Part shown: one piece after another, positions 15,016 to 37,848 of the stretch
Layout: every line of letters begins with the position of its first letter
Numbering within the stretch: the first letter of the stretch is position 1
Origin: a virus
Direction: 5' to 3' (one strand)
DNA length: 46,054 nt
Virus record (IMG/VR): IMGVR_UViG_3300047510_002615
Location: 1-46,054 of that record
Translations under genes and position numbers: made by a program
The notes under the pieces: generated by a model
What the model was told of the DNA's origin: nothing
Database searches by the model: none
Seen by the model: only the letters and a program-made list of their open reading frames with translations

Positions 15016-15171
15016 TGTTTTAAAAAGTAGTAAGACCATCAGGGACATGGTGGAGTTACTATGCTCCCCGCACCCTCAGCGGGGATATGAGAGACGTATT
15101 TACCCTCCCTTAGGTCTCGGTTAACGGGAGCACAATCTTTAAGAAACTTTACATTCCTTAACTTGTTGATG
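15016..15171 (-). promoter_or_regulatory. Structured 5' leader of psbA
   Basis: About 150 bases between the promoter and the psbA ATG. On the minus strand it contains CTCCC...GGGAG, then a GC-rich stem CCCCGC/GCGGGG with a 7-base loop (15064-15082), then ACCAT/ATGGT with a 7-base loop. No Shine-Dalgarno precedes the ATG. The GC-rich stem stands out in this AT-rich genome. A role in mRNA stability or light-dependent translation is inference. Confidence 0.6.
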
Positions 15172-16384: not shown

Positions 16385-16722
16385 AAAGCATTAAAAGAGT
16401 TATTGACGGTGATACTGTCGAAGTTGAAATCGATTTGGGGTTTCATTTGACTCTTTGTGATAAAGTTCGTTTAGCAGGAGTTAATACTCCAGAAACAAGA
16501 ACCACAGATCCAGAAGAAAAAGAAAAAGGTCTCAAATCCAAAGCATGGATGCAAGACCGTTTGAGTAATATTGAGGGTAAAGAGTTAATCGTAAAATTCG
16601 TAAAAGAAGAAAAGTACGGAAGATTACTGGGTTGGTTATATTTTGTTGGAGAACCTAATACCCTCAACGAACAATTAATTAATGAAGGGTTAGCAGAACC
16701 TTATATGACAGATCAACTGTAA
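16366..16722 (+). CDS. Thermonuclease-like (SNase) protein
   Basis: 118 residues from the ATG at 16366 with AAGGAG 8 bp upstream. Staphylococcal-nuclease fold motifs: VIDGDTVEVEIDLGFHL, VRLAGVNTPETR (calcium ligand, Arg and Glu of the active site), and KYGRLLGWLYF. A calcium-dependent phosphodiesterase cutting DNA or RNA. There is no signal peptide, so it would act inside the host, for example on host nucleic acid. Last gene of the plus-strand block; its end overlaps the end of the repeat-protein gene by 10 bp. Confidence 0.85.
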   Translation: MYDYKVKSIKRVIDGDTVEVEIDLGFHLTLCDKVRLAGVNTPETRTTDPEEKEKGLKSKAWMQDRLSNIEGKELIVKFVKEEKYGRLLGWLYFVGEPNTLNEQLINEGLAEPYMTDQL

Positions 16723-17954
16723 TCATGATGAAATGATGTATCATGATGATCATCATAAACCATTGGAATTTCATAATTATGTGATCCAAAATCATCAATA
16801 ACATCGTAAGAATTGTCGATGTGCTGATCCCCATGAAATTCATCGGGGATATTTTCATGCCAATTATTTCCTGGATGTTCTTCTACAAATCGATCAATAA
16901 CATCTGCAATTGAATTTCCATCATTTTCAGCGTTGTTATGAGGTCCCGAGTTACCTGGAGCATCCTGATCTCCATTTCCCCATCCATTATTTCCTCCTTT
17001 ACCTCCTCCATTATTAGGAGGATTTTCAGAATTATTATCTTGCCCTCCGTCATTTTTTGAATCACCTGGAGGTTGGTTTGATTCGGGGTCTTGTCCATCT
17101 TGATGATTGCCTTTGCCTGGATTGTCTGATGCTCCAGTTTCTCCATCCCAAGGTGAGTTTCCAACTTCTTTATCATTGCCAGGATTACCTCTGCCTGGAT
17201 CTTCTGGATCTTCGGGGTCTTCGGGATCCTCTGGGTCTTCTGGATCTTCTGGATCTTCGGGATCTTCTGGATCTTCTGGATCTTCGGGATCCTCTGGGTC
17301 TTCTGGATCTTCTGGATCTTCGGGATCTTCTGGATCTTCTGGATCTTCGGGATCTTCTGGGTCTTCTGGATCTTCTGGGTCTTCGGGATCTTCTGGATCT
17401 TCGGGATCTTCTGGATCTTCTGGATCTTCTGGATCTTCGGGATCCTCTGGGTCTTCTGGGTCTTCTGGATCTTCGGGGTCTTCGGGGTCTTCGGGATCTA
17501 CAGGAGGATCTACAGGAGGATCTACAGGAGGATTTACAGGCGGTTCTTGTTCTGGTAGATCGCCAACAACAATGCTGTCGTCAACATTATTCCCACCCCC
17601 AAAAGATATAGTATCAAGATTAAAAGAGATTCCATTTGTCTGAACTGGTGTGATATCTATTCCGTAAGCTTTAAATGCTTCTGCTGGAGTAATATTTCTT
17701 AGAACCACATTATCTCCAGAAGAACCATAAGATTCCAATGTAGGATTAAAAAGATCTGTATCTGTTGTAACTTCAACTGCACCAACATTACTTGATGGTG
17801 CAGTTTCTACTGGAGTGTTATCTACTCCCTCACCTACTGGTGTATATCCACCAGGAAAACGAGCAGCAGCAGTAGGATCATGTGGTATTTGATCCTGAGA
17901 TTGCTGACTCGTCTTGAGTGTTTCTTCGCCTTGTAATCCTAACTGATCTTCCAT
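16713..17954 (-). CDS. Late protein with 33 Glu-Asp-Pro repeats
   Basis: 413 residues in three parts: an N-terminal part (about 1-140) with AARFPGGYTPVGEGVDNTPV and ITPAEAFKAYGIDI; a proline-rich linker (PPVDPPVDP) leading into 33 tandem EDP units, a stiff, highly negative rod; then a Gly/Asn-rich and finally His-rich C-terminus (YDDHHDTSFHHDYS). No enzyme motif. A late-type element (17974-17981) lies 20 bp upstream. A spacer or fibre role on the virion is plausible; I recognise no family. Confidence 0.7.
   Translation of the reverse strand: MEDQLGLQGEETLKTSQQSQDQIPHDPTAAARFPGGYTPVGEGVDNTPVETAPSSNVGAVEVTTDTDLFNPTLESYGSSGDNVVLRNITPAEAFKAYGIDITPVQTNGISFNLDTISFGGGNNVDDSIVVGDLPEQEPPVNPPVDPPVDPPVDPEDPEDPEDPEDPEDPEDPEDPEDPEDPEDPEDPEDPEDPEDPEDPEDPEDPEDPEDPEDPEDPEDPEDPEDPEDPEDPEDPEDPEDPEDPEDPEDPEDPGRGNPGNDKEVGNSPWDGETGASDNPGKGNHQDGQDPESNQPPGDSKNDGGQDNNSENPPNNGGGKGGNNGWGNGDQDAPGNSGPHNNAENDGNSIADVIDRFVEEHPGNNWHENIPDEFHGDQHIDNSYDVIDDFGSHNYEIPMVYDDHHDTSFHHDYS
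17196..17495 (-). repeat. Tandem 9-bp repeat, 33 copies
   Basis: Units are variants of TGGATCTTC on the plus strand, each encoding Glu-Asp-Pro on the minus strand. Variation is at synonymous third positions only. Units 4-10 (17223-17285) and 11-17 (17286-17348) are an identical 63-bp block repeated back to back, so the array grew partly by duplicating a seven-unit block. Confidence 0.95.
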
Positions 17955-19340: not shown

Positions 19341-19859
19341 TCACACAGAAACTATTTGCCTCGACTTTACATATTCAAGGAGTTTGGTTGGTGTTGTTTC
19401 TTCGTAAGGATCTTCAATTGCATCATCACACTTTCCAGATTCGATGAACATTTTTTCAACTACCATATCATCGACAACCATCGCATAACGCCAAGACCTT
19501 TCACCAAAACCACAGTTATACTTTCCTACAAGCATACCCATGTAATCTGTGAAATCGGCATTTCCATCTGGAATCATCTTCACATTTTCAATTCCAAGTT
19601 CTTTTGCCCAAGCATTCATAACAAACCCATCATTTACAGAAATGCAAAAGATGTCATCAATACCTTGCTTTTTGAACTCATCATAAAGATCATCAAATCC
19701 AGGAAGTTGATAATTTGTACAGGTTGGAGTAAATGCACCAGGAAGGCTAAAAATAATTACTCTTTTTCCGCCAATAATATCCGAAGTTTTTTTAGTAATA
19801 AATTCTCCGTCTTCTCGGAAGACGAATTCATATTCGGCAAGACGCTTATTAGGTTCCAT
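19341..19859 (-). CDS. Peroxiredoxin (Prx5-type)
   Basis: 172 residues. The peroxidatic motif PGAFTPTCTNYQLPGF (Cys47 in TCT) is that of type II/Prx5 peroxiredoxins, and the FCISVNDGFVMNAWAKELG segment matches the fold. It reduces hydrogen peroxide and organic peroxides, probably with glutaredoxin or glutathione as partner; two glutaredoxins are encoded in this window. Last gene of an operon with two high-light-inducible proteins, so it likely protects the infected photosynthetic cell from light-driven oxidative stress. Confidence 0.9.
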   Translation of the reverse strand: MEPNKRLAEYEFVFREDGEFITKKTSDIIGGKRVIIFSLPGAFTPTCTNYQLPGFDDLYDEFKKQGIDDIFCISVNDGFVMNAWAKELGIENVKMIPDGNADFTDYMGMLVGKYNCGFGERSWRYAMVVDDMVVEKMFIESGKCDDAIEDPYEETTPTKLLEYVKSRQIVSV

Positions 19860-20489: not shown

Positions 20490-20538
20490 TTGTAACGATT
20501 TACAACAATAGTATATAGGTTTTGTAAAGTTTTGTCAA
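20490..20538 (-). promoter_or_regulatory. Sigma70 promoter with start-site dyad, hli operon
   Basis: On the minus strand TTGACA (20533-20538), 17-bp spacer, TATACT (20510-20515). The dyad TTGTAA-4-TTACAA (20490-20505) covers the expected transcription start, a good place for a repressor. The -35 lies inside the 3' end of the epimerase gene. Confidence 0.78.
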
Positions 20539-21455
20539 GAACCAATCTGTACGGGTTTCCTAACCTGTGTCTCGATCCAAGTATCAATTGATACCTTTGG
20601 AGACCATCCAAAGGTTTTTTTAATCCTATTATTATCTGCAAGAGTTTCTCTTGACTCCCCTGGTCTTGGAGAAATTTTGATTTGATTATCAGAAATCATG
20701 TTGGCAATTTCATTTATTGAATAATTTTTTCCAGTACCAACATTATAAATTCTACCAAATGCATTTGGTTCTAGATTAGAAATTGCAGCCATAATATTTG
20801 CATTTACAACATCAGATACGTGTGTAAAATCTCTACGTTGTTCACCATCACCCACAATTGTCAATGATTCTCCATTTTCTGCTTGTCTTAAGAACAATCC
20901 AATTACAGGAGCATAGTGTCCCTTAAGTGGTTGTCTTTCACCATAAACATTAAAATATCTGAATATGATCGTTTCCAATCCGTACAATTCATAATACATT
21001 TCACAAAGTTTTTCACCAGAAACTTTTGATACAGAATATGGATTCAAGCAATCTTCAATCATAGTTTCTACACATGGAGGAATGTTTCTTCCATATGCTG
21101 AGGATGTGGATGAATAAATGACTCTTTTAACTCCTGCTTCTCTTGCACATTGAAGAACCGTACAAGTCCCTACACAATTTGTTGCAACTGCAAGAATGGG
21201 ATTTTCAATCGCAGGTTGAATTCGTGATTCTGCGGCAAGGTGAAATACTACATCAACAGCATCGTAAAGAGACCGAGTATTAGTATAATCGGCAATATCA
21301 AATTTAGCATTAATCGCGCTTTCATTCCAATAAAACTCCTCGTTACATTCAGAACTCTCATTGTCAATTACGACAACTTCATGACCCATTTCCAAAAGTT
21401 TATCTACAAGATTGGAACCAATAAAACCAGCTCCACCAGTTACTAATGCTTTCAT
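20535..21455 (-). CDS. NAD-dependent sugar-nucleotide epimerase/dehydratase
   Basis: 306 residues, extended SDR fold: nucleotide motif TGGAGFIGSNL (residues 6-16), DVVFHLAAESR, and the catalytic Tyr140-xxx-Lys144 (YSVSK) with SSTSSAYG. Resembles UDP-glucose 4-epimerases and related sugar epimerases. It could make a sugar donor for the glycan cluster 3 kb away; the exact substrate cannot be read. It could also be the missing reductase/epimerase step after the ColD-like enzyme. Confidence 0.88.
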   Translation of the reverse strand: MKALVTGGAGFIGSNLVDKLLEMGHEVVVIDNESSECNEEFYWNESAINAKFDIADYTNTRSLYDAVDVVFHLAAESRIQPAIENPILAVATNCVGTCTVLQCAREAGVKRVIYSSTSSAYGRNIPPCVETMIEDCLNPYSVSKVSGEKLCEMYYELYGLETIIFRYFNVYGERQPLKGHYAPVIGLFLRQAENGESLTIVGDGEQRRDFTHVSDVVNANIMAAISNLEPNAFGRIYNVGTGKNYSINEIANMISDNQIKISPRPGESRETLADNNRIKKTFGWSPKVSIDTWIETQVRKPVQIGS

Positions 21456-21538: not shown

Positions 21539-23020
21539 TCAGAACGTGAACTTGGTCTGAATTACACCACCCCACTTGCTGCTGTCCTGGTAACGCTGAT
21601 TGTTGTCAACATAGAACAGAGCAGGAGTGATGCTGATGTTATCGGTAACTTGGAACTTGTAGAAGAACTCAAGCATCGTAGCATCAGATACGCCAGCGGT
21701 TTCAGCAGAAGGTGCTTGACCGACAGCAATACCAGCAGTATTACCAGCAACAAAAGCATCTGCCCACTGAAGACCAACGAACCAGGAATCCGAATCGGTA
21801 GCATCGGTAGCACCAGTAGTACCACTTACGAAGTTATATCCGTAACCAGCACTGATGGAGGGAACCCAACCAGATTCAGAAGGTTGCCAATATGCGTTAA
21901 GAGCAATGGCATTAGACTCCTGACCATCTACAAGAGCACCATTGGCACCCAGGAGACCATTGTAGGTGCGAGGACGGGTGCCCTCAGAACCATAACGATA
22001 ACCAGCACCAACACCCCAGTTAGATCCTTTGTAACCGAGTTGGGCAATGAAGTTCAGAGCACCTTCGGAATCAAAGACACCAGTGGAACTATCTTCACCA
22101 TTCTCGGCAACATAGTTCAGACCAGCAACGAATCCACCCTTGCCGACATACTGAGCACCAACACCAGCACCAGTTGCCTTGTTATAGACACCAGGAGCAC
22201 CAGCAACTTGGAAGAAGTCAAGGATTTCCGACTTATAAGCAGAAGGAACCCATGCCATCTCAGTGTTACGGACCTTAGGACCAGCAGTAATAGTCACACT
22301 ATCACCAACAGGGAACTGATAGTAGAGACGATCAAGAACAACATTGTCTCCAGTCAGAGCAGTAGTGTTGTCTGCCTTGTCCAGTTTGAACAGGGAAGAC
22401 GAAGAACCGAAAGGATCACTGCTGAAGTTAGCAGAACGCAGACGAGTGCGAAGGAGATCACGACCAGTGAACGAGGTGTCAAAGTTCAGACGGACATCAT
22501 AATTAAATGCGGTGTTGCCAACGTTTCCACCAGCATTAGTTTCAAGTCCAGGAACTCCACCCAGAACAAAGGTAGCTTCACCCTTCAGTTTGGTAGTGGT
22601 AGAGAACTGAGTTGCCTCAAGAACACCAACCTTTGCTTCCAAACCATCTACACGACCACGGAGAACAATCAGTTCTTCTTTGAATTCTGCCTGAAGTTTA
22701 CGAAGCTCATCGGTGACTTCAGTTACACGATCAAGGCAAGCATTCAGCAGTGCTGCTGCTTCGTAACGAGTCATTGCCTTACCACCACCGTAGGTGCCGT
22801 TAGGATAACCTGCTACGCAACCATAACGCTCAATAAGATTAGTGAGTGCTTGATATGCCCAGTCGGTAGGTTGAACATCAGAGAATTGAGTAACGCTCGT
22901 TACCTGTTCAACAGAAGAGTACTTGCTGACATCCTCAATATTGAGTTCTGCGGCAGTAGCAGCAGGAGCAACAAGACCCAAAGCAACAGGGACAAGCATC
23001 AGTTGTTTGAGAAAATTCAT
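21539..23020 (-). CDS. Cyanobacterial-type SLH/OprB outer-membrane porin
   Basis: 493 residues: a signal peptide (MNFLKQLMLVPVALGLVAPA, cleavage after ATA), an SLH domain (about 45-100, FSDVQPTDWAYQALTNLIER, NGTYGGGKAMTRYEAAALL), a coiled coil (about 100-140), and an OprB-like beta-barrel ending in aromatic Phe. This is the layout of the major porins (SomA type) of Synechococcus and Prochlorococcus. Codon use is more GC-rich than the neighbouring glycan genes, as in psbA, suggesting host origin and high expression. It may change uptake or phage-receptor properties of the infected cell. Confidence 0.93.
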   Translation of the reverse strand: MNFLKQLMLVPVALGLVAPAATAAELNIEDVSKYSSVEQVTSVTQFSDVQPTDWAYQALTNLIERYGCVAGYPNGTYGGGKAMTRYEAAALLNACLDRVTEVTDELRKLQAEFKEELIVLRGRVDGLEAKVGVLEATQFSTTTKLKGEATFVLGGVPGLETNAGGNVGNTAFNYDVRLNFDTSFTGRDLLRTRLRSANFSSDPFGSSSSLFKLDKADNTTALTGDNVVLDRLYYQFPVGDSVTITAGPKVRNTEMAWVPSAYKSEILDFFQVAGAPGVYNKATGAGVGAQYVGKGGFVAGLNYVAENGEDSSTGVFDSEGALNFIAQLGYKGSNWGVGAGYRYGSEGTRPRTYNGLLGANGALVDGQESNAIALNAYWQPSESGWVPSISAGYGYNFVSGTTGATDATDSDSWFVGLQWADAFVAGNTAGIAVGQAPSAETAGVSDATMLEFFYKFQVTDNISITPALFYVDNNQRYQDSSKWGGVIQTKFTF

Positions 23021-23084: not shown

Positions 23085-23118
23085 TATTTATCATACAGGG
23101 TGCTTTTGAAATTGTCAA
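23085..23118 (-). promoter_or_regulatory. Composite promoter of the porin gene
   Basis: On the minus strand TTGACA (23113-23118), 17-bp spacer, TATGAT (23090-23095), overlapping the late-type element GATAAATA (23085-23092). Same geometry as at psbA and psbD. Confidence 0.75.
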
Positions 23119-24539
23119 GGGGGTGCCTGTTTGGCACCAGATGGTTCGGTTATCCGACCTAAGAAGGGGTCGAAATTAGTAATCGCATCTAAAGTCATTT
23201 GAGCCCCATTTTGAGACCAGAAATTTAACAATCCATTATGAGAGTTTCTATGAAAGATATCAATGTGTTCTGGATGGATTGATGATCCTAATTCAATTTT
23301 ATATAAAAATAGTGGACATGCATAGGTACAACCAGAATTATAAATTAAATCATCAGCAACTGGTCTCGGTTTGACACCATTATCAAGTTTATATTTTTCA
23401 CCTCTGACATGATATTTCAATAGTTTTTCGGCATGATGTCGAGTAATTGCATAACAAGCCGTGGAAAAATCATTTACAAATCTAGTGTGAATGGGAACAT
23501 GAATATCTCCTGTGCAAATAATTGCCAATTGAATTACATCCCAGCAATAAGGAACTCTTGAGATAAAATCTTTCCAAGTAAAATTCCAAAACTTTGCTAT
23601 GTCAATATTACAATCATCTTCCATAATAATTGCATATGGACTATCAGAATTTTCATACCAATATTTGATTGCTTTGAGGTGGGAAGTAACGCATCCAATT
23701 TCACCAGAGGTCATTCCTTCAGGGTATCTACCAGAAAGAATATCACTCAAATCATCCTCTCTCCCATCATAAGCAGAAATTCGGGTGTAGTCAGTCAACT
23801 CCCAATGCTTGAATTGCTTTTCCATATAATTCCATCTTTCTGGCTGTCCATCCAGATTGATACAATAAATTGGACCAAAATTGTTTAACTTATAAACAGA
23901 CTTATTTTTATCCATTAGATGCGAATCGTCGTCTTTATCATACTTATATCCTTCAACATTATACATTATCAATTCAGTCATTGCAATTTTACCACCAGAT
24001 TCACCTACTGAAGAAATATATTTAAAATCTTCGGCGTTATCATTTATGAATTTGATTTCATTTTTGCTTACAAATTCTTTACTTACAAAGAAAGAAATTC
24101 CAACATTATTTTGAATAATTTGATTCATTCCTGGTGGAGGTATGATTTTCATTCCATGCCTATCATATCTCATCCTAAAGATACAAGCATCTATTTCAAC
24201 TTCACTTGTTATTTTTTCTACACTTTCAACATATTCTTTTTGAAGTGTGTCATCGTCATCTACAAATCCAATCCATTTTCTATTATTTTCAATACTTGAA
24301 ATAATAGAATTTCTAACAAGTCCAGCATTTCCATGATGACCAGAATTTCCCATCTTATCTTTAAAATAGATGTAATGTATTCTGTCATCATCAATGAGTA
24401 TATTTTTATCTACCTGATCTTCAGATAATCCATCAAAACCAACCCAACATTCCCAATCAGGATTCGTTTGATTAATAATAGACTCTAGAGTAAATTTTAA
24501 AGTTTCTCTACCAATACTTGGAATTACAAAATTAATCAT
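23115..24539 (-). CDS. GT2-GT25 bifunctional glycosyltransferase
   Basis: 474 residues. N-terminal half (1-210) is a GT2-type GT-A fold: VIPSIGRETLKFTLES, GNAGLVRN, FVDDDDTL (DxD). C-terminal half (220-474) is GT25-like: IYCINLDGQPERW, GCVTSHLKAIKYWY, IIMEDDCN. It would add two different sugars. The first half is a paralogue of the next gene upstream (24554-25177), the second of the C-terminal part of the fusion at 9290-11569. Last gene of the glycan cluster before the porin promoter. Confidence 0.82.
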   Translation of the reverse strand: MINFVIPSIGRETLKFTLESIINQTNPDWECWVGFDGLSEDQVDKNILIDDDRIHYIYFKDKMGNSGHHGNAGLVRNSIISSIENNRKWIGFVDDDDTLQKEYVESVEKITSEVEIDACIFRMRYDRHGMKIIPPPGMNQIIQNNVGISFFVSKEFVSKNEIKFINDNAEDFKYISSVGESGGKIAMTELIMYNVEGYKYDKDDDSHLMDKNKSVYKLNNFGPIYCINLDGQPERWNYMEKQFKHWELTDYTRISAYDGREDDLSDILSGRYPEGMTSGEIGCVTSHLKAIKYWYENSDSPYAIIMEDDCNIDIAKFWNFTWKDFISRVPYCWDVIQLAIICTGDIHVPIHTRFVNDFSTACYAITRHHAEKLLKYHVRGEKYKLDNGVKPRPVADDLIYNSGCTYACPLFLYKIELGSSIHPEHIDIFHRNSHNGLLNFWSQNGAQMTLDAITNFDPFLGRITEPSGAKQAPP

Positions 24540-24553
24540 TTAAATTTCCTCCT

Positions 24554-25177
24554 TCAAAATCCCACATTATAAGTAACATAATTAGATACCTTTATAGATG
24601 CACCAGATTCTTTTAAGTTCATTAAGAATTTATAATCTTCTCTAGAATCATTTACAAACTTAATTCCAGTTTTTTTAAGAAAACTCTTCCTAACACAAAA
24701 TGATATTCCAACTTTATCTTGTATTAGATTATTTTCACCTAAAGGAGGTAAGATTTTCTCTCCACCTGGATCAAATCTCATCCTAAAAACATAACAATCT
24801 ACAGGAGATTCGGAATTATTAATTTCCAAAAACAGACTGTCAACATAATAAGGTGTAACCGTATCATCATCATCTAGAAAAGCAACCCATTCATTTTGAG
24901 TATTTAAATGATTCATTATTTCATTTCTAACTAATCCAGCGTTCCCCATTCCCCATTCACCAACACACCCAATTTTTTGTTCAATAAAAATATATTTAAT
25001 TTTTTTATCATTTATTAAATTATCTTTATTGATATTTTTTTGTGGTATTCCATCAAATCCAACAAACGCATTCCATTCTTGCTCTCCCTTATAGAAAAGA
25101 TAATTTTGATCCAATAAAGATTTTAAAGATCTTATCAATGTTGGTCTAGCAACAGAAGGTATTACAAAATCAATCAT
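24554..25177 (-). CDS. GT2-family glycosyltransferase
   Basis: 207 residues, GT-A fold with VIPSVARPTLIRSLKSLL, GNAGLVRNEI and the metal-binding FLDDDDTV. Shares VGFDG, GNAGLVRN and GISF-type motifs with the N-terminal half of the neighbouring GT2-GT25 protein, so one arose by duplication and fusion to, or loss of, the GT25 half. Overlaps the upstream gene by 4 bp. Confidence 0.82.
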   Translation of the reverse strand: MIDFVIPSVARPTLIRSLKSLLDQNYLFYKGEQEWNAFVGFDGIPQKNINKDNLINDKKIKYIFIEQKIGCVGEWGMGNAGLVRNEIMNHLNTQNEWVAFLDDDDTVTPYYVDSLFLEINNSESPVDCYVFRMRFDPGGEKILPPLGENNLIQDKVGISFCVRKSFLKKTGIKFVNDSREDYKFLMNLKESGASIKVSNYVTYNVGF

Positions 25178-25878
25178 AATTCAACTCCATATTTATTTTT
25201 ACAATATATAGATTCCTTAGAAAAATCCTTTGGCGCATTATTTGAGATAGAGCAATCATTTGGAAATCTATTTGTAACTAGGATATCGTCTAAAAATATA
25301 GGATCTCCATAATCAAATCTCATTCCATAGAAAAAATCAATGTCCATAAAGTGAACAAGATTTTCATCAAATCTATTTTTAACTTCTTTTTTGAAGGTTA
25401 AAACAGATGGGGAACTTAAAGTGTTGGTCCCATCTAATAATTTATCATTGAATCTTGGATATAAATCCCAATAAAATGAGTTTCCATGATCAGCAGTGTG
25501 ATTGCATCCATTCAATAACCAAACCTTATCACTATTATACAACGCATTATAAATCTTTTCAAGTGCCTCATCATCATAAAAGAAATCGTCCTGGAACATG
25601 ACTTTTATCACATCCCCAGAACACATTTCAATTGCTTTGTTAGTATTTGCTGGACCATTTCCATGATCATTTTTATTTCGTTGATAACGAATTAGAAGTC
25701 TGTCTTTAAATTCTTCAACTTTATTAAGCACTTCATCATCTTTACTATGGTCAGAAATACAAACTTCATAGGAATGATGACCTTTTTGAATTTCAATGGT
25801 TCTCAATAAATCATCAAGAAATTCTGAACCTCTACCATAAGATTCCCAAGTTGGGATTGCTATAGAAATGTTAGTCAT
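25174..25878 (-). CDS. GT2-family glycosyltransferase
   Basis: 234 residues from the ATG at 25878 (overlapping the upstream stop as TGATG). GT-A fold: SIAIPTWESYGRGSEFLDDL, YEVCISDHSKDD, then IKVMFQDDFFYDD as the DxD-like metal site. Transfers a sugar from a nucleotide donor; acceptor unknown. Confidence 0.8.
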   Translation of the reverse strand: MTNISIAIPTWESYGRGSEFLDDLLRTIEIQKGHHSYEVCISDHSKDDEVLNKVEEFKDRLLIRYQRNKNDHGNGPANTNKAIEMCSGDVIKVMFQDDFFYDDEALEKIYNALYNSDKVWLLNGCNHTADHGNSFYWDLYPRFNDKLLDGTNTLSSPSVLTFKKEVKNRFDENLVHFMDIDFFYGMRFDYGDPIFLDDILVTNRFPNDCSISNNAPKDFSKESIYCKNKYGVEL

Positions 25879-26633
25879 CAAATACCGTCATATAATTTTA
25901 CAGGTTGTGAAATATAGTTTTCCCACCATTCTAACAATTCATCTTTACTCCACGATCCCCTCTCTCTCCAATGGCTACAAGTATAATCGGGATAAATGGA
26001 TAGATCCATTATTCTTTTTCCATTTCTCATTTTTTTAACGAATTGCTCAAAGCTCCTATATTGATAATGTTTAATGCCTATTATATTGTCTAAGACTTTC
26101 CCAGGATGACTCAAAACATCATGATTTCCTGCGGTTATTTTTGCCTGAGGACATCTGGTAAAAGCTACTGCAGGGAATGAATCGGAATTTTGTTTCGCAT
26201 AGATCATAGATTCAAATGGATTATCAGATTCTGGATCATTTTTTGTTGGAACAAAATCAGTAACATATGCTTTAAATACGTAATCACCATCGTATTCCTT
26301 TAACAATTGTCCTAAAGTTTTTCCTTCAATTTTAGAATACCATTTTTCATCCGAGTCTACCGCAACAATAATATCTGCTCCCATATCATAACACTGTGGG
26401 ATCCACCTATTCATTTTTTGATCTTGTGCGTATGCAAATTCTTTATCATCAATTACTGTCATATTTCCATATTTTTCAGACAATTCCAATAATATTTTTT
26501 TTGTATTATCTGTAGACAAATTATTTGCAATAAAAAAATGATCTATATCTTGAGTTTGTAGCCATTCAATATTGTGACCTATAATATCTTCTTCATCTTT
26601 AGTAATCATAACCACAAATACTTTCTTATTCAT
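25878..26633 (-). CDS. GT2-like glycosyltransferase
   Basis: 251 residues: VFVVMITKDEEDIIGHNIEW at the start, NNLSTDNTKKIL, and IVAVDSDEKWY with the DxD motif. This is the GT2_4/GT92-like group that begins from known inner residues of a glycan. The His and Trp-rich end (CSHWRERGSW, WWENYI) is shared with phage and bacterial relatives as far as I recall. Coupled to the downstream GT2. Confidence 0.78.
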   Translation of the reverse strand: MNKKVFVVMITKDEEDIIGHNIEWLQTQDIDHFFIANNLSTDNTKKILLELSEKYGNMTVIDDKEFAYAQDQKMNRWIPQCYDMGADIIVAVDSDEKWYSKIEGKTLGQLLKEYDGDYVFKAYVTDFVPTKNDPESDNPFESMIYAKQNSDSFPAVAFTRCPQAKITAGNHDVLSHPGKVLDNIIGIKHYQYRSFEQFVKKMRNGKRIMDLSIYPDYTCSHWRERGSWSKDELLEWWENYISQPVKLYDGI

Positions 26634-26642
26634 TTTAATTCC

Positions 26643-27395
26643 TCACTGCAATGTGTTCTTTTGATTATCATACATTTGTTTTTCCCAATCTGTCATTTTA
26701 TCTCTGACATCATTCCTATTTAACATTTGAGGTCCAAAAATCCTTCCTTGAAAAAATTCTTCATCCTTTTGCAAAAAAGGAGCATCTATAAAAAATCCCC
26801 TATTATCAGAATGACTGGCTCTTTGCCATGCTATATGAGGTCTTATAATATAACAATTAATTTCATTCTGAATTTTTGCAATAGCTTCATCTGCGGTCGT
26901 TCCATGTAAAGACTCTATTATTTTATCATAGATATTTTCTCTTATTGCATATGCATGTAAAGTGAGGCAATGAGTGACTCTAAAAATATTTTTTTTAACT
27001 TTTGATAAAGTCCCAATAGACCATGGATTATTTCCTATATGATTGCCACCCAAATAAAGCATATCCCAATCACTAGGAAGTTGTTTCATAATTTCAGATA
27101 ATTTTTCATTCAAATCATCCGAAAATTGAATATCATCTTCAAGAATTAAAGCATTTTTAAGATTTTTAGATTTTATTTTTTTAATTAATTCCCTATGAGA
27201 CATTAAACAACCAATTTGACTTGCGTTTAAATTAAGAATAGATTCATTGGGAAAATCATTCCCATTAAAGGCATTAAATCTATTAACATTTATATTATGC
27301 TTTTTAAATTCTTTTTGACATTCTTCCCATCTATCAGTTCTCTTATTTAAATTAATACAGTATATTTCGTCAAAATAATCATTTAAAGTTTTCAT
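26643..27395 (-). CDS. GT25-family glycosyltransferase
   Basis: 250 residues from the ATG at 27395 (ATGA overlap with the fucosyltransferase-like gene); a start 12 bp earlier is possible. GT25 (LPS glycosyltransferase) motifs: IYCINLNKRTDRWEECQKEF, ASQIGCLMSHRELIKKI, ALILEDDIQFSDDL with the EDD metal site, DWDMLYLGG. It normally adds hexoses to lipooligosaccharides. Confidence 0.85.
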   Translation of the reverse strand: MKTLNDYFDEIYCINLNKRTDRWEECQKEFKKHNINVNRFNAFNGNDFPNESILNLNASQIGCLMSHRELIKKIKSKNLKNALILEDDIQFSDDLNEKLSEIMKQLPSDWDMLYLGGNHIGNNPWSIGTLSKVKKNIFRVTHCLTLHAYAIRENIYDKIIESLHGTTADEAIAKIQNEINCYIIRPHIAWQRASHSDNRGFFIDAPFLQKDEEFFQGRIFGPQMLNRNDVRDKMTDWEKQMYDNQKNTLQ

Positions 27396-28198
27396 ATTAC
27401 TATCCATTTTTCTAAAATTCTATCTTCAATTTTCCATCCAGATAAAGCTGGACCAAACCATTTTTGGGGAGCAACTACTTTTTTACTTTTTGATAACCAA
27501 GCTCCCCACCAACTAAAAGAACTGTTTGCAATAATATGATAATCACAACATGTCATTAAACATAAATCAAAATCTACAGTATTTTCTTGAGAAATGATAA
27601 ATCTATCTCCATCAAAAAAACTTTGATCTTCGCACCATTTTTCATCATCCGTGAAAATAATCACTGGACATTCTTCAGGAAATAATAAAAGTGCTTTTTT
27701 ATAATATTCTATCGAACAAATTGGATGATGATCTGGAAAATCTGAGTAATCACTTCTGCGAATGTGTAAAGATATTACATCTTGTCCAGGATAAAATTCA
27801 GCAAGAAATCTATTTGCATCTATCAAAAGATTTTCATCAAATACAAAATCCTTTCGGATTTCATCTTCAATATGATTAAAATATTTTTCAGATTGAAAAT
27901 ATCCATCAATATCTACATTGTCAGGACATGTTTCAAATAAATCTTTATCAAAATTTATTGTAGATTCCTTTAATTTTACATTATTTGTTATATCAATAAT
28001 ATTATTTTTTTGTAGATCAAATACATCGTAAATATCACAATTAGCATTAAGAACTTTAGGATCTTTAGTTCCAAAAAAATCTTTTGGTGGGATGCAAAAA
28101 GAATACCCATGTTTTTTTGCTATGCCCTTTAACGAAGCATATTGAAACATTTGATTCCCAAGTCTTCCACAGTTTCCAATATTATTAAATGATATCAT
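27392..28198 (-). CDS. GT11 alpha-1,2-fucosyltransferase-like protein
   Basis: 268 residues with GRLGNQMFQYA (11-21), HIRRSDY (145-151, the GDP-fucose-binding motif of GT11) and ANSSFSWWGAWL. The donor GDP-L-fucose can be made by gmd and fcl in the same cluster. Second GT11 copy at 28997-29794; the two are clear paralogues. Overlaps the GT25 gene by 4 bp and the GT10-like gene upstream by 14 bp. Confidence 0.88.
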   Translation of the reverse strand: MISFNNIGNCGRLGNQMFQYASLKGIAKKHGYSFCIPPKDFFGTKDPKVLNANCDIYDVFDLQKNNIIDITNNVKLKESTINFDKDLFETCPDNVDIDGYFQSEKYFNHIEDEIRKDFVFDENLLIDANRFLAEFYPGQDVISLHIRRSDYSDFPDHHPICSIEYYKKALLLFPEECPVIIFTDDEKWCEDQSFFDGDRFIISQENTVDFDLCLMTCCDYHIIANSSFSWWGAWLSKSKKVVAPQKWFGPALSGWKIEDRILEKWIVI

Positions 28199-29000
28199 TT
28201 TTTAAAAAATAGTTTAAATAAATAAAATCTTCGCCAATAGGATATGTTTTTTGTACTTCAAAATTATCTCTAATTGCCTTCATTTTACTATAATATATAT
28301 CCTCAGAAACTTCAAATTCATCATTCAAAAATATTATACCATCGGTATTAAAATAATCTCCGATATTAGGTGCTCCTTTATAAACTGGTATAGTTCCAGT
28401 AGCAAAACAGTCTAATATTTTTTCAGTAAAGTATCCATCATAAAATCCATTTTCAATACAAACAGAAAACATATAATCACATAATCCTTCTTCTTTGAAG
28501 TCAATTTGATTAAATCCCCTTCCATACAAATCAACCTGATCTCCTATTTTTTCAACCCATTGAAGTCTTTCAAGATGTCCATATGTCATAGATTTATTTG
28601 AAGCAATCATGGAAATCATTTTAGATTTTTTATAAATTTTTGGCGATTGTATCCATGTTGATGCAGCTGGGCAGAATTTAAATCTTTCATCAATATCAAG
28701 TAAATCTTTACTATTAGTAAAAATTAAATCAAAAATTTCAAAATATTTTAAATAATGATTTTTAACATTTTCATATATTGAATTAGAAACAAATTTTGAT
28801 TCCAAAAGCCAACCATACTTTTTTTTATTATCTTTATGTTTAAATGCCAATGGAATAAATCCATCAATGTAAAAACTTATATTGGATGAATTATCAAAAA
28901 CCCATTCAATATATTTTGATTCTTTTCCATGAGTAGAGTATCCTTTATTTCCTCCCGTATTATGAGTAAAAGAATCTCCATATAAATTGCATTTTATCAT
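28185..29000 (-). CDS. GT10 alpha-1,3-fucosyltransferase-like protein
   Basis: 271 residues from the ATG at 29000 (coupled to the upstream GT11 by ATGA). The C-terminal half carries FSVCIENGFYDGYFTEKILD and ATGTIPVYKGAPNIGDYF, the conserved GT10 core. Transfers fucose or a related 6-deoxy sugar from a GDP donor. With two GT11 genes this suggests a multiply fucosylated or mixed 6-deoxyhexose glycan. Confidence 0.83.
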   Translation of the reverse strand: MIKCNLYGDSFTHNTGGNKGYSTHGKESKYIEWVFDNSSNISFYIDGFIPLAFKHKDNKKKYGWLLESKFVSNSIYENVKNHYLKYFEIFDLIFTNSKDLLDIDERFKFCPAASTWIQSPKIYKKSKMISMIASNKSMTYGHLERLQWVEKIGDQVDLYGRGFNQIDFKEEGLCDYMFSVCIENGFYDGYFTEKILDCFATGTIPVYKGAPNIGDYFNTDGIIFLNDEFEVSEDIYYSKMKAIRDNFEVQKTYPIGEDFIYLNYFLKNDII

Positions 29001-29794
29001 ATTAATATCCAATGTTTTAAATATAAATCTTTTGTATCATGATCCTTACAATCACCAGCAAACCAATTTTTAGGTGCTATAACATTTACACTATCTGCCA
29101 ACCAAGCTCCCCACCAACTAAACGTGCTATTACAAATAATGTGATGAGTGCATTGAGAAAGTAGATAAAGATCCATATAGGCATCTCCAATTTCAGAAAC
29201 AGAAAATCTATCTCCATCAAATATTTTTTGTTCCATACACCACTCTGGATCATCGGAAAAAACATATACAGGAAGATCATTATCAAACTCTGACAATGCC
29301 TTCTCATAGTATGAGTTTGGTTGCACAGGATGATTTGGATTTTTTAAGAAATCATTTCGTCTTATGTGTATTCCAATACAATCACTATTATGCATTTCCG
29401 ATACAATTGGCTCACATTCATTTTGAATTTCTCTTTTAAATTGAAAATCTTTATTTCTCAATTCGCCTTCAATATGCTTAAAATACTTTTCACTTTGAAA
29501 ATATCCAACATAATTAACATCATGTTCTGGTGGATTTTCAAATAAATCCTCATCAAAATGAAAAAACCTTTCAGTAACAGATGGGAACTCTGTCATTGAT
29601 CGGTCACAATCAATAATAAATGCATCATCAATGTTGCTGAAAAGATCTTGATAATAATACTTACCAAAGACATGATGAGGTGGAATGTAAAATCGTCTAT
29701 TGTGTTTTATAGACATTGATTTTGCAAATGCATATTGAAACATTTGATTCCCCAAATGCCCATTGTTACCTAGATGATTAATAGAAAAAGACAT
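28997..29794 (-). CDS. GT11 alpha-1,2-fucosyltransferase-like protein
   Basis: 265 residues with GHLGNQMFQYAFAK, HIRRNDF (143-149) and CNSTFSWWGAWLAD. Paralogue of the GT11 at 27392-28198 with the same layout (YFQSEKYFKHIE in both). Uses a GDP-sugar donor, probably GDP-fucose. Part of the overlapping GT11-GT10-GT11 block. Confidence 0.86.
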   Translation of the reverse strand: MSFSINHLGNNGHLGNQMFQYAFAKSMSIKHNRRFYIPPHHVFGKYYYQDLFSNIDDAFIIDCDRSMTEFPSVTERFFHFDEDLFENPPEHDVNYVGYFQSEKYFKHIEGELRNKDFQFKREIQNECEPIVSEMHNSDCIGIHIRRNDFLKNPNHPVQPNSYYEKALSEFDNDLPVYVFSDDPEWCMEQKIFDGDRFSVSEIGDAYMDLYLLSQCTHHIICNSTFSWWGAWLADSVNVIAPKNWFAGDCKDHDTKDLYLKHWILI

Positions 29795-29808: not shown

Positions 29809-30546
29809 TTAAATTTCATATATTTCCCAGCCCTCAAAAAAGTTTTTTGAGAGATTTATTTTATTATAATTATAGATTACTTTTTTAGATTCTTCATTGC
29901 ATAAAAATTTTCCAAGAATGCTAAACAAATGACCTATTCCATAAAATTCTTTTGCGTTCTTAATTATATTAACATAAGAAAATAGGGGCAAATTAATAAC
30001 TTGTTGAGCAATTTCATAATATTCATCAGATTCCTTATAATGATTATAATTTGGATTTAAAATTAATCTATCATTTGGTATTATTTTTTTCAATTCATGA
30101 ATATGATTAGTGCCAGATGACTTTGCATTTACAAAAATATATTCAAATTCTTTTACTCTATTATAAACAGTATCATCTATAACTTCATCATCTATATTAA
30201 AATGAGTGCTAGAAACTTTTACTGGTATGTTTATTTGTTCATAAAAAATATCTGGCAATTTATATTTTCCCAAATCATCATTATTTTTATAAATTCCACA
30301 CTTATAAACTTCTTTTTCTTCTTTAAAGTTATCTATGAAGTAATTTATAGCGTAAATCGAATCTTCAATTTCAATTATAGAAAGATTATCAACATCATGA
30401 TATAACTTTAATGTATTTTCAAAATATTCGGATTTTGAAAATACATATACGTTTTCATATTTTTTACACAAATATCTTATTGCTGGACTTATACAAAATA
30501 CATCACCTAGTCCCAAATGATGAGCAACTATAAGGTTTTTAGTCAT
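29809..30546 (-). CDS. Probable GT-B glycosyltransferase (GT9-like)
   Basis: 245 residues. The opening NLIVAHHLGLGDVFCISPAI resembles the glycine loop of heptosyltransferases (GDxxxxxP), and NAKEFYGIGHLFSILGKFL near the end resembles the donor-binding half. Weak match only; it could be another kind of GT-B enzyme. Overlaps the ColD-like gene by 8 bp. Confidence 0.5.
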   Translation of the reverse strand: MTKNLIVAHHLGLGDVFCISPAIRYLCKKYENVYVFSKSEYFENTLKLYHDVDNLSIIEIEDSIYAINYFIDNFKEEKEVYKCGIYKNNDDLGKYKLPDIFYEQINIPVKVSSTHFNIDDEVIDDTVYNRVKEFEYIFVNAKSSGTNHIHELKKIIPNDRLILNPNYNHYKESDEYYEIAQQVINLPLFSYVNIIKNAKEFYGIGHLFSILGKFLCNEESKKVIYNYNKINLSKNFFEGWEIYEI

Positions 30547-31702
30547 TTAAATTATCAAGAATTGATTTTAACATATTCATTTCACGATTTCCCACAAAAT
30601 GATTATTCCCCAAGTATAATCCAAAATCATGGATATTGTCAACCCAATTATCTTTATTATTATCAATAGAATAGTGCTTTAAGTAGGGTTGCTTTAAAAG
30701 ATTTCCTCCTATAATTGGTCTGTATTCTATTCCATTTTTAACACACAATTTTTCAAAATTCTCTTTTGTATTTTTATTATAAAAAACTAAAGGAAAGCAA
30801 AAACTACTTATTCCGTCTGGAACAAATGGGACATGAACTTTATGGCAATATTGGGAGAGTATTTTAACAAATTTTTTATAGTTATTATTTCTTTTTTCGA
30901 TCATTCTATCTAATCTTTTCAATTGGGATAAACCCAATACTGCAGCCAATTCATGATTTCTAAAATTATATCCATCAGTTACGAAAAGAAATTCTTTATT
31001 TAATTCATTATAAGTTTCATAATAGACTTCTTTTTCATCAGATTCTCTTGCAAGACCATGACTTCTTTTAAGTCTCATCATATCATAGATTCTCCAATCG
31101 TTGGTGCAAATCATGCCACCTTCAATAGTGGACATGTGGTGTCCAAAATAAAAACTAAAAGTAGCACCAAGACTATCTGAACCTACCTTTGATCCATTAA
31201 AATTTTTAGCTCCATGAGATTCACAAACATCATCCAAAAATAAAGCATTCGGAAAAATTTCTCGATATCGTTCTACAGGAGAAGGAAATCCCATCAAATG
31301 AGTAGTAAACACTAATTTGATGTCTGGGTGCTTTTCAGCAATATACCTCAAATTATCTTCATTAAACGTAAACGAATTAATGTCAACATCACAAAAAATT
31401 GGTTGAAATCCCAATTGAAATACTGGATTAATATTAGTAACCCAAGTGCAAGCGGGAACAACTACCTTATCACCATTCTTTAATCCAAATACTTCTTTGA
31501 CTGCAGCAAGGAGCAAATAATTAGCAGTGCTTCCAGAAGACACATATAGAGCATATTCACTTCCTACCCATGCTGCCCATTCATCTTCAAATTCTCTGAC
31601 TTTAGATCCATTAGTAAATTTTCTAGAAGTCAAACAGAACTTTGCCATTCTAACCCTATCCTCAAGGGTCATATTATCTTTCATTAAAGGCCAGAAACTC
31701 AT
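30539..31702 (-). CDS. ColD-like PLP-dependent 3-dehydratase (His-type DegT)
   Basis: 387 residues of the DegT/AHBA family. At the usual PLP-lysine position the sequence is SFYFGHHMSTIEGGM: His188 replaces lysine (compare FFGNKTITAGEGG in the gene at 34841). His here marks the sugar 3-dehydratases ColD (GDP-colitose) and E1/RfbH, which remove the C3 hydroxyl instead of aminating. Length and His number agree with E. coli ColD (388 residues, His188). Substrate would be GDP-4-keto-6-deoxymannose made by Gmd nearby. No ferredoxin-type E3 partner is nearby, which favours ColD over E1. Confidence 0.8.
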   Translation of the reverse strand: MSFWPLMKDNMTLEDRVRMAKFCLTSRKFTNGSKVREFEDEWAAWVGSEYALYVSSGSTANYLLLAAVKEVFGLKNGDKVVVPACTWVTNINPVFQLGFQPIFCDVDINSFTFNEDNLRYIAEKHPDIKLVFTTHLMGFPSPVERYREIFPNALFLDDVCESHGAKNFNGSKVGSDSLGATFSFYFGHHMSTIEGGMICTNDWRIYDMMRLKRSHGLARESDEKEVYYETYNELNKEFLFVTDGYNFRNHELAAVLGLSQLKRLDRMIEKRNNNYKKFVKILSQYCHKVHVPFVPDGISSFCFPLVFYNKNTKENFEKLCVKNGIEYRPIIGGNLLKQPYLKHYSIDNNKDNWVDNIHDFGLYLGNNHFVGNREMNMLKSILDNLND

Positions 31703-34455: not shown

Positions 34456-34851
34456 TTATTTAAATAAACAATAAAAAATTTTTTCACTATTAGAATAAAT
34501 TTTAAATCCATTATTTAAATAAAGATTTATTGCTTTATAATTATCTTTATCTACAGTAAGATATAATGAATTTTCATTTCTATTATCTAAAAGATTTTTA
34601 AGTATTATCTTCCCATACCCATTTCCAACAAATGAATCAAATACGCACATTCCCAACCAAATTTTATTAAATTCATAATCCAAATGCCCATAACCAACAG
34701 GTTGAGGATCACATAGTATAAAATGATATAGATGATTCTTGAAACAACTTGCTTCTCTAGAAGAAAAATATCTAAAAGTTTTTTTCAACTTGCTATTTTG
34801 TTCAACTAAAGTTTTTATTTCATTGAATGAAAATTCTGTATTAAAATTCAT
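34456..34851 (-). CDS. GNAT-family acetyltransferase
   Basis: 131 residues with VGNGYGKIILKNLL, the acetyl-CoA pyrophosphate loop of GNAT enzymes, and LTVDKDNYKAINLYLNNGF, their conserved end. It overlaps by 11 bp the upstream aminotransferase gene; together they likely form an N-acetylated amino sugar (aminate, then acetylate). Confidence 0.82.
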   Translation of the reverse strand: MNFNTEFSFNEIKTLVEQNSKLKKTFRYFSSREASCFKNHLYHFILCDPQPVGYGHLDYEFNKIWLGMCVFDSFVGNGYGKIILKNLLDNRNENSLYLTVDKDNYKAINLYLNNGFKIYSNSEKIFYCLFK

Positions 34852-35929
34852 AGTTCAAAATATTACTACAAATATAATCTAATTGCTCTTCAGTTAGATC
34901 GGGATAACTAGGAATATTAAATCCTCTTCCACTAATGTTTTCTGCTATCCTGTGAGACTGATATTTATGAGAATACATCGGCATTGTATGAACTGGATAA
35001 AATAAAGGTCTAGTATCTATGCCCCTTTCACGCAAATATTCTCTAAATTTATCTCTTTGTTCTTGATTGCATTCAAAAATAACACTATTCATCCAATAAC
35101 TGTGAACAGTACCTGACTGTTCTTTATGCGTTTGAACATGAGTTCCATCAAATGCGTTATGATAGTATTCTGCTATTTTTCTTTTTTTTCCAATTAATTC
35201 ATCGGACCTTTCTAATTGAGCTTGTCCAATTGCACAAGCAATATTGGTCATTCGATAATTATATCCAACAACATCATGCCAATATTGACGATGTTCTGCA
35301 AGTCCTTGTCCCTTCAAATGGATTGATCTTCTATAAAGTGTTTCATTATTTGTAACGACCATTCCTCCTTCTCCCGCTGTTATAGTTTTATTTCCGAAAA
35401 AACTATAAGTAGAAATATCTCCAAAAGATCCTACATGTTTTCCTTTATAGTAAGTTCCAAATGCTTCTGCACAGTCTTCGACAAGAAACAATTCGTTTTC
35501 TTTTGCAATTTTACAAATATAATCCATATCACAAGATTGTCCATACAAATGAACGACCATAATTGCTTTTGTTCTTGAAGTTATTTTTTTTATAATGTCT
35601 TCTGGATCTACTTGCCAAGTTTTCTCCAAAGAATCCACAAATATTGGAGTCGCACCACAATAAACAATTGAATTTACCGAAGCAATATAAGTAAATGTTG
35701 GGACAATAACTTCATCTCCAGGTCCAATACCCAATGCAAGTAATGCTAAATGCAAAGCTACTGTCCCATTACATGTAGAAACAGAATAATCTATATTTGT
35801 TTTTTTGGCAAAAGATTCTTCAAAAAGATCTACATATTTTCCCTTTGAAGAAATCCAAGAACTATCTAAACATTCGTTGACATATTTTTTTTCAAGATCA
35901 GTTACTGATGGTTGATATACTGGGATCAT
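34841..35929 (-). CDS. DegT aminotransferase, GDP-perosamine synthase-like
   Basis: 362 residues. PLP lysine Lys181 in SFFGNKTITAGEGG, EDCAEAFG, SSWISSKGKYVDLFE at the start; overall closest in my reading to GDP-perosamine synthase (PerA/RfbE), which aminates GDP-4-keto-6-deoxymannose at C4. Unlike the ColD-like enzyme 3 kb downstream it keeps the lysine, so it is a true aminotransferase. It follows fcl by one base and precedes a GNAT gene. Confidence 0.85.
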   Translation of the reverse strand: MIPVYQPSVTDLEKKYVNECLDSSWISSKGKYVDLFEESFAKKTNIDYSVSTCNGTVALHLALLALGIGPGDEVIVPTFTYIASVNSIVYCGATPIFVDSLEKTWQVDPEDIIKKITSRTKAIMVVHLYGQSCDMDYICKIAKENELFLVEDCAEAFGTYYKGKHVGSFGDISTYSFFGNKTITAGEGGMVVTNNETLYRRSIHLKGQGLAEHRQYWHDVVGYNYRMTNIACAIGQAQLERSDELIGKKRKIAEYYHNAFDGTHVQTHKEQSGTVHSYWMNSVIFECNQEQRDKFREYLRERGIDTRPLFYPVHTMPMYSHKYQSHRIAENISGRGFNIPSYPDLTEEQLDYICSNILNYEF

Positions 35930-35930
35930 A

Positions 35931-36854
35931 TCATTTATTCTCCAAATACCATTCGTAAGTTTCTTTCAATCCCGTTTCAAAGTCAATAGAATGCTTCCAT
36001 CCAAGCTCTTGAAGTTTATCCACGTTCAATAATTTTCTTGGAGTTCCATTAGGTTTATTTGTGTCCCAAGCAATGTCCCCCTCATATCCAACAACCTTGG
36101 CAATAGTTTTTGCCAATTCTTTAATAGTAATATCTGTACCTGTTCCCACATTAATAATCTCTGGACTATCGTAATTTTCCATAAGAAAAAGACAAGCATT
36201 CGCAAGATCATTTACATGCAAAAATTCTCTATATGGTGATCCATCTCCCCACACAATAGGAATTTCACCAGTTTCCTTTGCCTTATGAAACTTAGTAATA
36301 AATCCAGGAAGAACGTGAGAGGTCTCTGGATTAAAGTTATCATTAGGCCCATAAAGATTAGTAGGCATTAATGAAATGGCATTAAATCCATATTGCTCAG
36401 CATATGCCTGACACATTTTAATTCCCGCAATCTTAGCAAGAGCATATCCATCATTTGTTGGTTCAAGAGGACCCGTCATCAACTGATCTTCAGTGATTGG
36501 TTGATTTGCAAATTTGGGATAGATACAAGAAGAACCAAGAAATAAAAGTTTTTTAACACCAAAATTATAAGAACTTTGGATAATATTGGTTTGGATTTGA
36601 AGATTCTCAGTTAAAAAATCTGCCTTATAGTTTTTATTTGCCATAATGCCGCCAACTCTAGCAGCAGCAAGAAAAACATATTCAGGTTCTTCTGAACAAA
36701 AATATCTTTCAGTTTCATCTTGATCCGTGAAATCCACATCATCCCGAGTTCCTTTGATGATGTTTATGTATCCACCTTCTTCAAGAGATCTCACAATTGC
36801 TCTACCAACCATTCCATAGGCACCAGCAACTAAAATCTTACTGTCAAGTTTCAT
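35931..36854 (-). CDS. fcl: GDP-L-fucose synthase
   Basis: 307 residues from the ATG at 36854 (11-bp overlap with gmd); a TTG 18 bp earlier is an alternative. SDR motifs AGAYGMVG (10-17) and Tyr137-xxx-Lys141 (YALAK), with [10 protein letters not shown] and [11 protein letters not shown] typical of GDP-4-keto-6-deoxymannose 3,5-epimerase/4-reductase. Converts the Gmd product to GDP-L-fucose for the GT11 and GT10 enzymes downstream. Confidence 0.94.
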
Positions 36855-37848
36855 TAATACACATTTCCTCAACTAATTGATCAAAAGAAATCTTAGGTTC
36901 CCAACCCAATTTCCGTTTTGCCTTAGTGGCATCACCTAATAAGGTCTCTACTTCAGCAGGTCGGAAGTATTTAGGATCAACAATTACACGCACTAAACCA
37001 GTGATCTTATCAATTCCAACTTCAGTGCCTTCATCAGTGAACTCCCATTTAATTTTCATTCCGAAGTAAGGTGCTACTCTTTCAACAAACTCACGAACTG
37101 AATACTGTTTTCCAGTAGCAATCACGAAGTCATCAGGTTCATCTTGTTGAAGCATTAACCACATTGCCTCAACATAATCTTTTGCATGTCCCCAATCACG
37201 AAGAGCATTCAAATTGCCCAGTTTAAGCACCGTTTGCTTACCCTCAGACATTGCCTTGAAACCTCTGGTAATCTTACGAGTAACAAATGTCTCACCACGG
37301 CGAGGAGATTCATGATTAAAAAGAATGCCCGTGCAAGCATACATTCCATATGCCTCACGATAGTTTTTGACAATCCAGTAACCATAGATCTTAGCAACAC
37401 CATAAGGACTCCTGGGATAGAAAGGAGTTGTTTCTGTTTGAGGAATCTCCTGAACCTTACCATAAAGTTCTGACGTAGATGCCTGATAGATACGAACATC
37501 ATTCTCCATTCCAAGAATACGAACTGCTTCAAGAATACGAAGAGTTCCAAGTGAATCAACTTGTCCAGTATATTCAGGTATTTCAAAAGATACCTTTACA
37601 TGACTCTGAGCACCAAGATTATAAATCTCATTCGGTTTAACTTTCTGAATTACCCTTATAAGATTGGTAGAATCAGTAAGGTCGCCGTAATGGAGATGAA
37701 TACGATTATAAATGTGGTCAATACGATGAGTGTTAATAAGGGATGCTCTTCGGATAATTCCATGAACCTCATAACCTTTTTCAAGTAGTAGTTCAGCGAG
37801 ATACGATCCATCTTGTCCTGTGATTCCTGTAATTAATGCCTTTTTCAT
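36844..37848 (-). CDS. gmd: GDP-mannose 4,6-dehydratase
   Basis: 334 residues, full length. [15 protein letters not shown] (7-21), Tyr149-xxx-Lys153 (YGVAK), [17 protein letters not shown] and [15 protein letters not shown] are typical of Gmd. It makes GDP-4-keto-6-deoxymannose, the common precursor for three branches encoded downstream (fcl, perosamine-type, ColD-type). No GDP-mannose-making gene is in the window, so that comes from the host or elsewhere in the phage. Codon use is more GC-rich than its neighbours. Confidence 0.96.

Follow-up and report, generated by a model that had tools for sequence, protein, structure and literature searches.

What does a viral enzyme with the fold of an aminotransferase do when a histidine occupies the place of the PLP-binding lysine, and which sugar does it serve? 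The question is raised by an ORF of 387 aa (30539-31702, minus strand; its ATG start lies at 31702 and its stop codon ends at 30539) in the window, by which we mean the whole stretch of 46,054 nucleotides analysed here (IMG/VR record IMGVR_UViG_3300047510_002615). The host of this virus is predicted to be a cyanobacterium, because the window contains photosystem genes (13936-15048 and 12630-13691) and a transaldolase gene. Based on its best PDB match (2gms), fold and phylogeny, we annotate the ORF as a putative histidine-type, PMP-dependent, ColD-like GDP-sugar C3-dehydratase. We consider it likely that the enzyme dehydrates GDP-4-keto-6-deoxy-D-mannose at C3, with the product probably being finished by an Fcl-type enzyme as GDP-L-colitose.

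A histidine replaces the PLP lysine

The active-site motif of the dehydratase, SFYFGHHMSTIEGG, spans residues 183-196 (31115-31156, minus strand) and contains the predicted catalytic His188 (codon 31139-31141), which stands in place of the PLP-binding lysine absent from this protein, followed by His189 (31136-31138). His188 shares an alignment column with His188 of ColD, a column fixed by the mutant chains 3b8x (H188N) and 2r0t (H188K), and the same column holds Lys181 of the neighboring aminotransferase ORF (34841-35929). These results confirm the sequence-only reading, which had set His188 against Lys181 of the neighbor. The column was invariably His in the alignment of 25 phage, 20 bacterial, 15 ColD-clade and 8 E1-clade sequences, while it was Lys in 5 of the 5 aminotransferases compared. 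The HH pair was present in all 80 viral relatives retrieved, that is, the best 80 of 391 stretches; since HH stood in 1 of the 6 search patterns, these relatives are not fully independent for the motif count. Homologues from S-CAM7 (53.5% identity) and ACG-2014f (52%), which were detected by pattern-free tblastn, likewise possess HH. The occurrence of His188 in the window enzyme is not due to chance.

The enzyme groups with C3-dehydratases and outside the ColD clade

When solved structures were searched with phmmer, the best match to the window dehydratase was E. coli ColD (2gms; E 3.5e-55, 34% identity). The predicted structure (pLDDT 92.8) adopts the aspartate-aminotransferase fold, and a fold search returned a TM score of 0.91 to ColD 2gms, compared to 0.82-0.85 for GDP-perosamine synthase. 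We built two trees, one of 89 sequences (SH-aLRT) and a more careful one of 47 (bootstrap/SH-aLRT). The window protein grouped with the dehydratases rather than the aminotransferases in the former (99 SH-aLRT), and all histidine enzymes split from the lysine aminotransferases in the latter (100/100). The phylogenetic check had been set beforehand; placement among aminotransferases did not occur, and the trees favor the dehydratase reading. In the 47-sequence tree the E1/RfbH group was separate (100/99), while the ColD group, including ColD of E. coli O55, closed at 100/100 without the window protein. The window protein instead fell into a third group (100/99), composed of a virus clade (100/100, and holding the window protein), bacterial relatives that are 37-44% identical to it and some cyanobacterial enzymes.

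Residues invariant in the phage clade and common to the ColD clade comprise His188/His189, Ser183, Asp158, Cys160-Glu161, Asn61, Trp87, Arg219, Asn246 and Arg328, and among these Arg219 and Arg328, present in the window enzyme, are candidates for GDP binding. At several other positions the phage clade departs from the ColD-clade invariants (Ser187 to Gly, Met193 to Ile/Val, Trp217 to Leu/Met and Pro251 to Asn). Alignment with ColD and RfbH/E1 indicated that the His column is common to both, while the four-cysteine motif of E1 is incomplete in the window enzyme, which retains only Cys160, the one shared with ColD. Since the window protein lies in the virus clade of a third group, it is predicted to work like ColD, yet it is no ColD orthologue. 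The ColD-type assignment of the sequence-only reading thus holds for a histidine-type C3-dehydratase with ColD-like rather than E1-like chemistry and a GDP pathway, and fails as regards orthology.

These same data bear on the two names under which the family is filed. That the enzyme is an ordinary 4-aminotransferase, as phage database names have it (PHROG 3139, the phage family of its relatives, is labelled aminotransferase), draws on a fold common to both enzyme types; we regard it as very improbable given that there is no lysine to form the internal aldimine, that all relatives have His and that the tree separates the two at 100/100. Relatives in the GenBank records of S-CAM7 are instead named 'putative CDP-4-keto-6-deoxy-D-glucose-3-dehydrase', which would make the window protein an iron-sulfur dependent dehydratase of the E1/RfbH type acting on a CDP sugar. 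With three of the four [2Fe-2S] cysteines missing, a score of 149 bits against the cut-off of 423 for NF011936 (E1/RfbH), a position outside the E1 clade and a gmd gene in the module, this assignment is scarcely credible.

A GDP-mannose based sugar module surrounds the dehydratase

The predicted supplier of the substrate is gmd (36844-37848, minus strand), encoding a GDP-mannose 4,6-dehydratase that yields GDP-4-keto-6-deoxymannose. The assignment is based on TIGR01472 (553 bits, cut-off 415) and on PDB matches, the best of which are nearly all named GDP-mannose dehydratase; identity to E. coli Gmd is 64-65%. A gmd gene was present in 75 of the 76 viral dehydratase loci with more than 3 kb of upstream sequence, and in the related viral loci gmd, Fcl-type SDR and dehydratase genes as a rule follow one another in this order. 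Directly upstream of the viral dehydratase lay an Fcl-type SDR in 65 of 83 loci and gmd in 11, while in 13 of the 83 a more distant SDR lay directly downstream. In S-CAM7 and ACG-2014f the gmd, Fcl-type SDR and dehydratase genes are adjacent, whereas in the window ~4.2 kb, containing genes for an aminotransferase, a GNAT protein, an FkbM methyltransferase and others, separate fcl from the dehydratase.

The aminotransferase in this gap (34841-35929, minus strand) is a lysine-type sugar aminotransferase (Lys181) closest to GDP-perosamine synthase (PDB 3bn1, E 5e-103), and it represents a competing second branch from the Gmd product. The GNAT acetyltransferase beside it (34456-34851, minus strand; PF00583) possibly N-acylates the amino sugar. 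Loci L078 and L084 encode aminotransferases 81% identical to the window copy. Because in L078 this gene and, after it, an ORF of 131 aa similar to the GNAT gene lie just downstream of the dehydratase, the module has been reshuffled between phages.

On the other side of the dehydratase, and on the same minus strand, lies a series of transferase genes. The nearest encodes a GT11 protein (alpha-1,2-fucosyltransferase family; 28997-29794, PF01531 E 5e-29) that is 30% identical to its GT11 counterpart among the colitose genes of E. coli O55, and a GT11 gene directly adjoins the dehydratase in its nearest relatives (L007, L008 and L009). It is followed by a GT10-like protein (fucosyltransferase family 10; 28185-29012, PF00852 E 2e-8), a second GT11 transferase (27392-28198, PF01531 E 1e-23) and five more glycosyltransferases in a row (GT25 and GT2; 23115-27407).

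Other genes of the window were also noted. A cyanobacterial-type outer-membrane porin with OprB porin and S-layer homology domains is encoded at 21539-23020 (minus strand), and 25 of 80 related viral loci have a relative of it close to their sugar module. A peroxiredoxin-like protein (Redoxin domain; 19341-19859, minus strand) has relatives in 8 of 80 such loci, and a 413 aa protein (16713-17954, minus strand) contains a long Pro-Glu-Asp repeat run.

The probable finishing reductase is Fcl-type

We compared the SDR of the module (35931-36872, minus strand; start probably at 36851) with references from the E. coli O55:H7 colitose cluster and, for Fcl and Gmd, from K-12. It shares 52% identity with Fcl of E. 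coli, against 40% with ColC, and an SDR tree placed the window enzyme with Fcl, apart from the ColC clade (99 SH-aLRT). Over 25 columns that mark ColC versus E. coli Fcl, the phage enzymes matched Fcl in 251 of 550 cells and ColC in 78 of 550. A ColC identity for the module SDR was rejected on these grounds, and the protein is annotated as an Fcl-type GDP-sugar C5(C3)-epimerase/C4-reductase. It retains Ser107, Cys109, Tyr136, Lys140 and His179, as does ColC; these are the known catalytic residues of GMER, numbered as in work on that enzyme. No ColC-clade enzyme was found in the 46 kb window, and as the IMG/VR record is perhaps a fragment, ColC could lie elsewhere in the phage.

The sequence-only reading had called the final reductase not obvious and had named both Fcl and the epimerase at 20535 as candidates. 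Of these, the Fcl-type enzyme gains support as the usual neighbor of the dehydratase and by its intact catalytic residues. The SDR at 20535-21455 (minus strand) is a GalE/WbpP-like NAD epimerase by NCBIfam and PDB matches, is 27% identical to ColC and lies 9 kb away, and it is not favored; its relatives are not constant neighbors of the dehydratase. Fcl normally catalyzes epimerization at C3 and C5 and reduction at C4. With a 3-deoxy substrate only the C5 and C4 steps matter, which is what ColC does, and the phage Fcl is predicted to accept the 3-deoxy sugar.

The lineage is common in viruses

Although a pathway of this kind had been thought unusual in a cyanophage, a scan of viral contigs returned 391 stretches encoding relatives of the window dehydratase, and tblastn matched it to 74 phage records, 54 of them from Synechococcus phages. 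The viral loci examined are the best-scoring 80 of the 391 stretches, with near-copies included and ORFs called mechanically. Among the matches listed, no member of the virus clade came from a cellular genome, bar L087, a contig in a Crocinitomicaceae MAG that has the phage gene set (Gmd 81%, dehydratase 62% and Fcl 61% identity) and probably represents viral sequence binned in error. When an origin from Cyanobiaceae hosts was looked for, 19 of 300 sampled picocyanobacterial genomes contained a match, at no more than 41% identity.

Phage gmd and fcl genes have already been described in S-SCSM1 (PMC9602691). In the literature searched, with most subscription journals outside it, we found no paper on this dehydratase family in phages and none that joins colitose with cyanophages. 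Phages also encode 3-dehydratases of the E1/RfbH type with [2Fe-2S] cysteines (L006, 7842-9137; L074, 14883-16220; L005, 15553-16854; L026, 16636-17943; L027, 12023-13381; L069, 18830-20137), and several of the phages with such an enzyme encode a ColD-like one as well. No CDP-glucose genes were found among the scanned neighbors of the E1/RfbH-type gene of S-B43 (L006).

Substrate, product and proposed mechanism

That the window enzyme is a C3-dehydratase is, on the evidence of motif, fold and trees, highly probable. Its substrate is likely GDP-4-keto-6-deoxymannose, while colitose as the final product is a plausible but still tentative assignment. Counting against these views, the enzyme lies outside the ColD clade and ColD-clade invariants are altered in the phage clade; the window has no ColC-clade enzyme; and the sister clade is found mostly in GDP-heptose clusters, so that the substrate is possibly a heptose derivative supplied by the host.

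In that event the true substrate of the C3-dehydratase would be GDP-6-deoxy-4-keto-heptose, with the phage tapping the GDP-heptose of its host. There is precedent in C. jejuni, where C3-dehydratases of the ColD clade convert GDP-6-deoxy-4-keto-heptose, yielding GDP-3,6-dideoxyheptoses (PMC10440746). The nearest bacterial clade (L088-L166) comprises His-type dehydratases from Prochlorococcus, SAR11, SAR86, Nitrospinota and others, and of its 79 loci 51 contain an HddA-like, 41 an HddC-like and 25 a GmhA-like gene; it is a candidate source of 3,6-dideoxyheptoses, its heptose role being itself probable. In contrast, hddA-like genes were found in 7, gmhA-like in 1 and hddC-like in none of the 83 viral loci. 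Because heptose genes are nearly absent from the phage loci, almost all of which encode a true Gmd (in the window closely resembling that of E. coli), a hexose is the better guess and a heptose substrate is unlikely. Among lineages closer to the base of this group, L090, a bacterial locus outside the heptose group, has the dehydratase beside gmd, which counts against the heptose; L204 and L205 have it beside true ColC, and L203 beside an Fcl-type SDR. A further possibility, which we hold to be appreciable albeit the weaker one, is that the same dehydratase serves a GDP-3,6-dideoxyhexose other than L-colitose, with C5 left uninverted or another SDR at work, and that Fcl makes only GDP-L-fucose. 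The Fcl-type character of the window reductase is consistent with this, and where a locus has no Fcl, another SDR frequently adjoins the dehydratase, so the last step is not uniform across the clade. However, Fcl-type SDR and dehydratase are nearly constant neighbors, which suggests that they act jointly, and Fcl and ColC have the same catalytic residues.

In four loci of the Prochlorococcus family (L204, L205, L206 and L207), ColC adjoins ColD or a divergent ColD-like enzyme. L207 has the order gmd-colC-colD, so colitose is probably an endogenous product of some potential hosts.

In ColD, amination by glutamate produces the PMP form of the cofactor and the histidine abstracts a cofactor proton; once the C3 hydroxyl has departed, the enamine sugar is hydrolyzed and ammonia is lost (reviewed in PMC8987622). 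The mechanism proposed here draws on that review and on the GDP-heptose C3-dehydratases of C. jejuni (PMC10440746). For the window phage we infer the following reaction steps, finishing reductase and fate of the sugar. Gmd would convert GDP-mannose to GDP-4-keto-6-deoxy-D-mannose, the substrate of the dehydratase, in which glutamate would aminate PLP to PMP. Reaction of PMP with the C4 ketone would give a ketimine; His188, in the lysine's place, would then take the PMP proton as the C3 hydroxyl departs, and hydrolysis would release GDP-4-keto-3,6-dideoxymannose and ammonia. The Fcl-type enzyme of the module would most likely invert C5 and reduce C4 with NADPH, giving GDP-L-colitose, and the local transferases, GT11 first, would transfer colitose to a glycan on the virion or on the infected cell.

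Significance and comparison with known systems

A large phage family filed as 'aminotransferase' thus acquires a specific prediction, namely that these phages supply their own 3,6-dideoxy sugar. This bears on whether cyanophage sugar clusters serve to remodel host lipopolysaccharide (e.g. as a barrier to superinfection, which has been proposed for P-SSM2) or to decorate the virion. We propose, tentatively, that the phage enzymes form a virus-only C3-dehydratase lineage within a recombining module whose finishing reductase is swapped between Fcl-type and other SDRs; one Gmd could then feed fucose, perosamine and several 3,6-dideoxyhexoses, and a single Fcl-type enzyme might make both fucose and colitose without ColC.

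The closest viral counterparts, from S-CAM7 (MT586120, NC_031927) and the ACG-2014f 'aminotransferase' (PHROG 3139), share the clade, 52-54% identity and the order gmd, Fcl-type SDR, dehydratase, and differ in that no stretch like the ~4.2 kb of the window separates fcl from the dehydratase. The bacterial sister clade (Prochlorococcus MIT 9314, SAR11, SAR86 and others) has a motif of the HHM type, yet many of its members reside in GDP-D-glycero-D-manno-heptose clusters. The C. jejuni heptose enzymes are likewise PLP/glutamate C3-dehydratases acting on a GDP sugar, but at 62-67% identity to ColD they belong to the ColD clade and not to that of the window. E1 (RfbH/DdhC, 3bcx) also has His in place of Lys and performs the C3 deoxygenation predicted for the window enzyme; in contrast, it possesses [2Fe-2S] cysteines, acts on a CDP sugar and forms its own clade. 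ColD of E. coli O55 resembles the window enzyme in fold, length, His188-His189, Ser183 and the lack of a [2Fe-2S] motif, and its cluster, like the window, contains gmd and GT11. It differs in belonging to another clade at 34% identity, in having ColC rather than an Fcl-type enzyme as its partner SDR and Ser187 rather than Gly187, and the window enzyme, unlike ColD, is carried by a phage.
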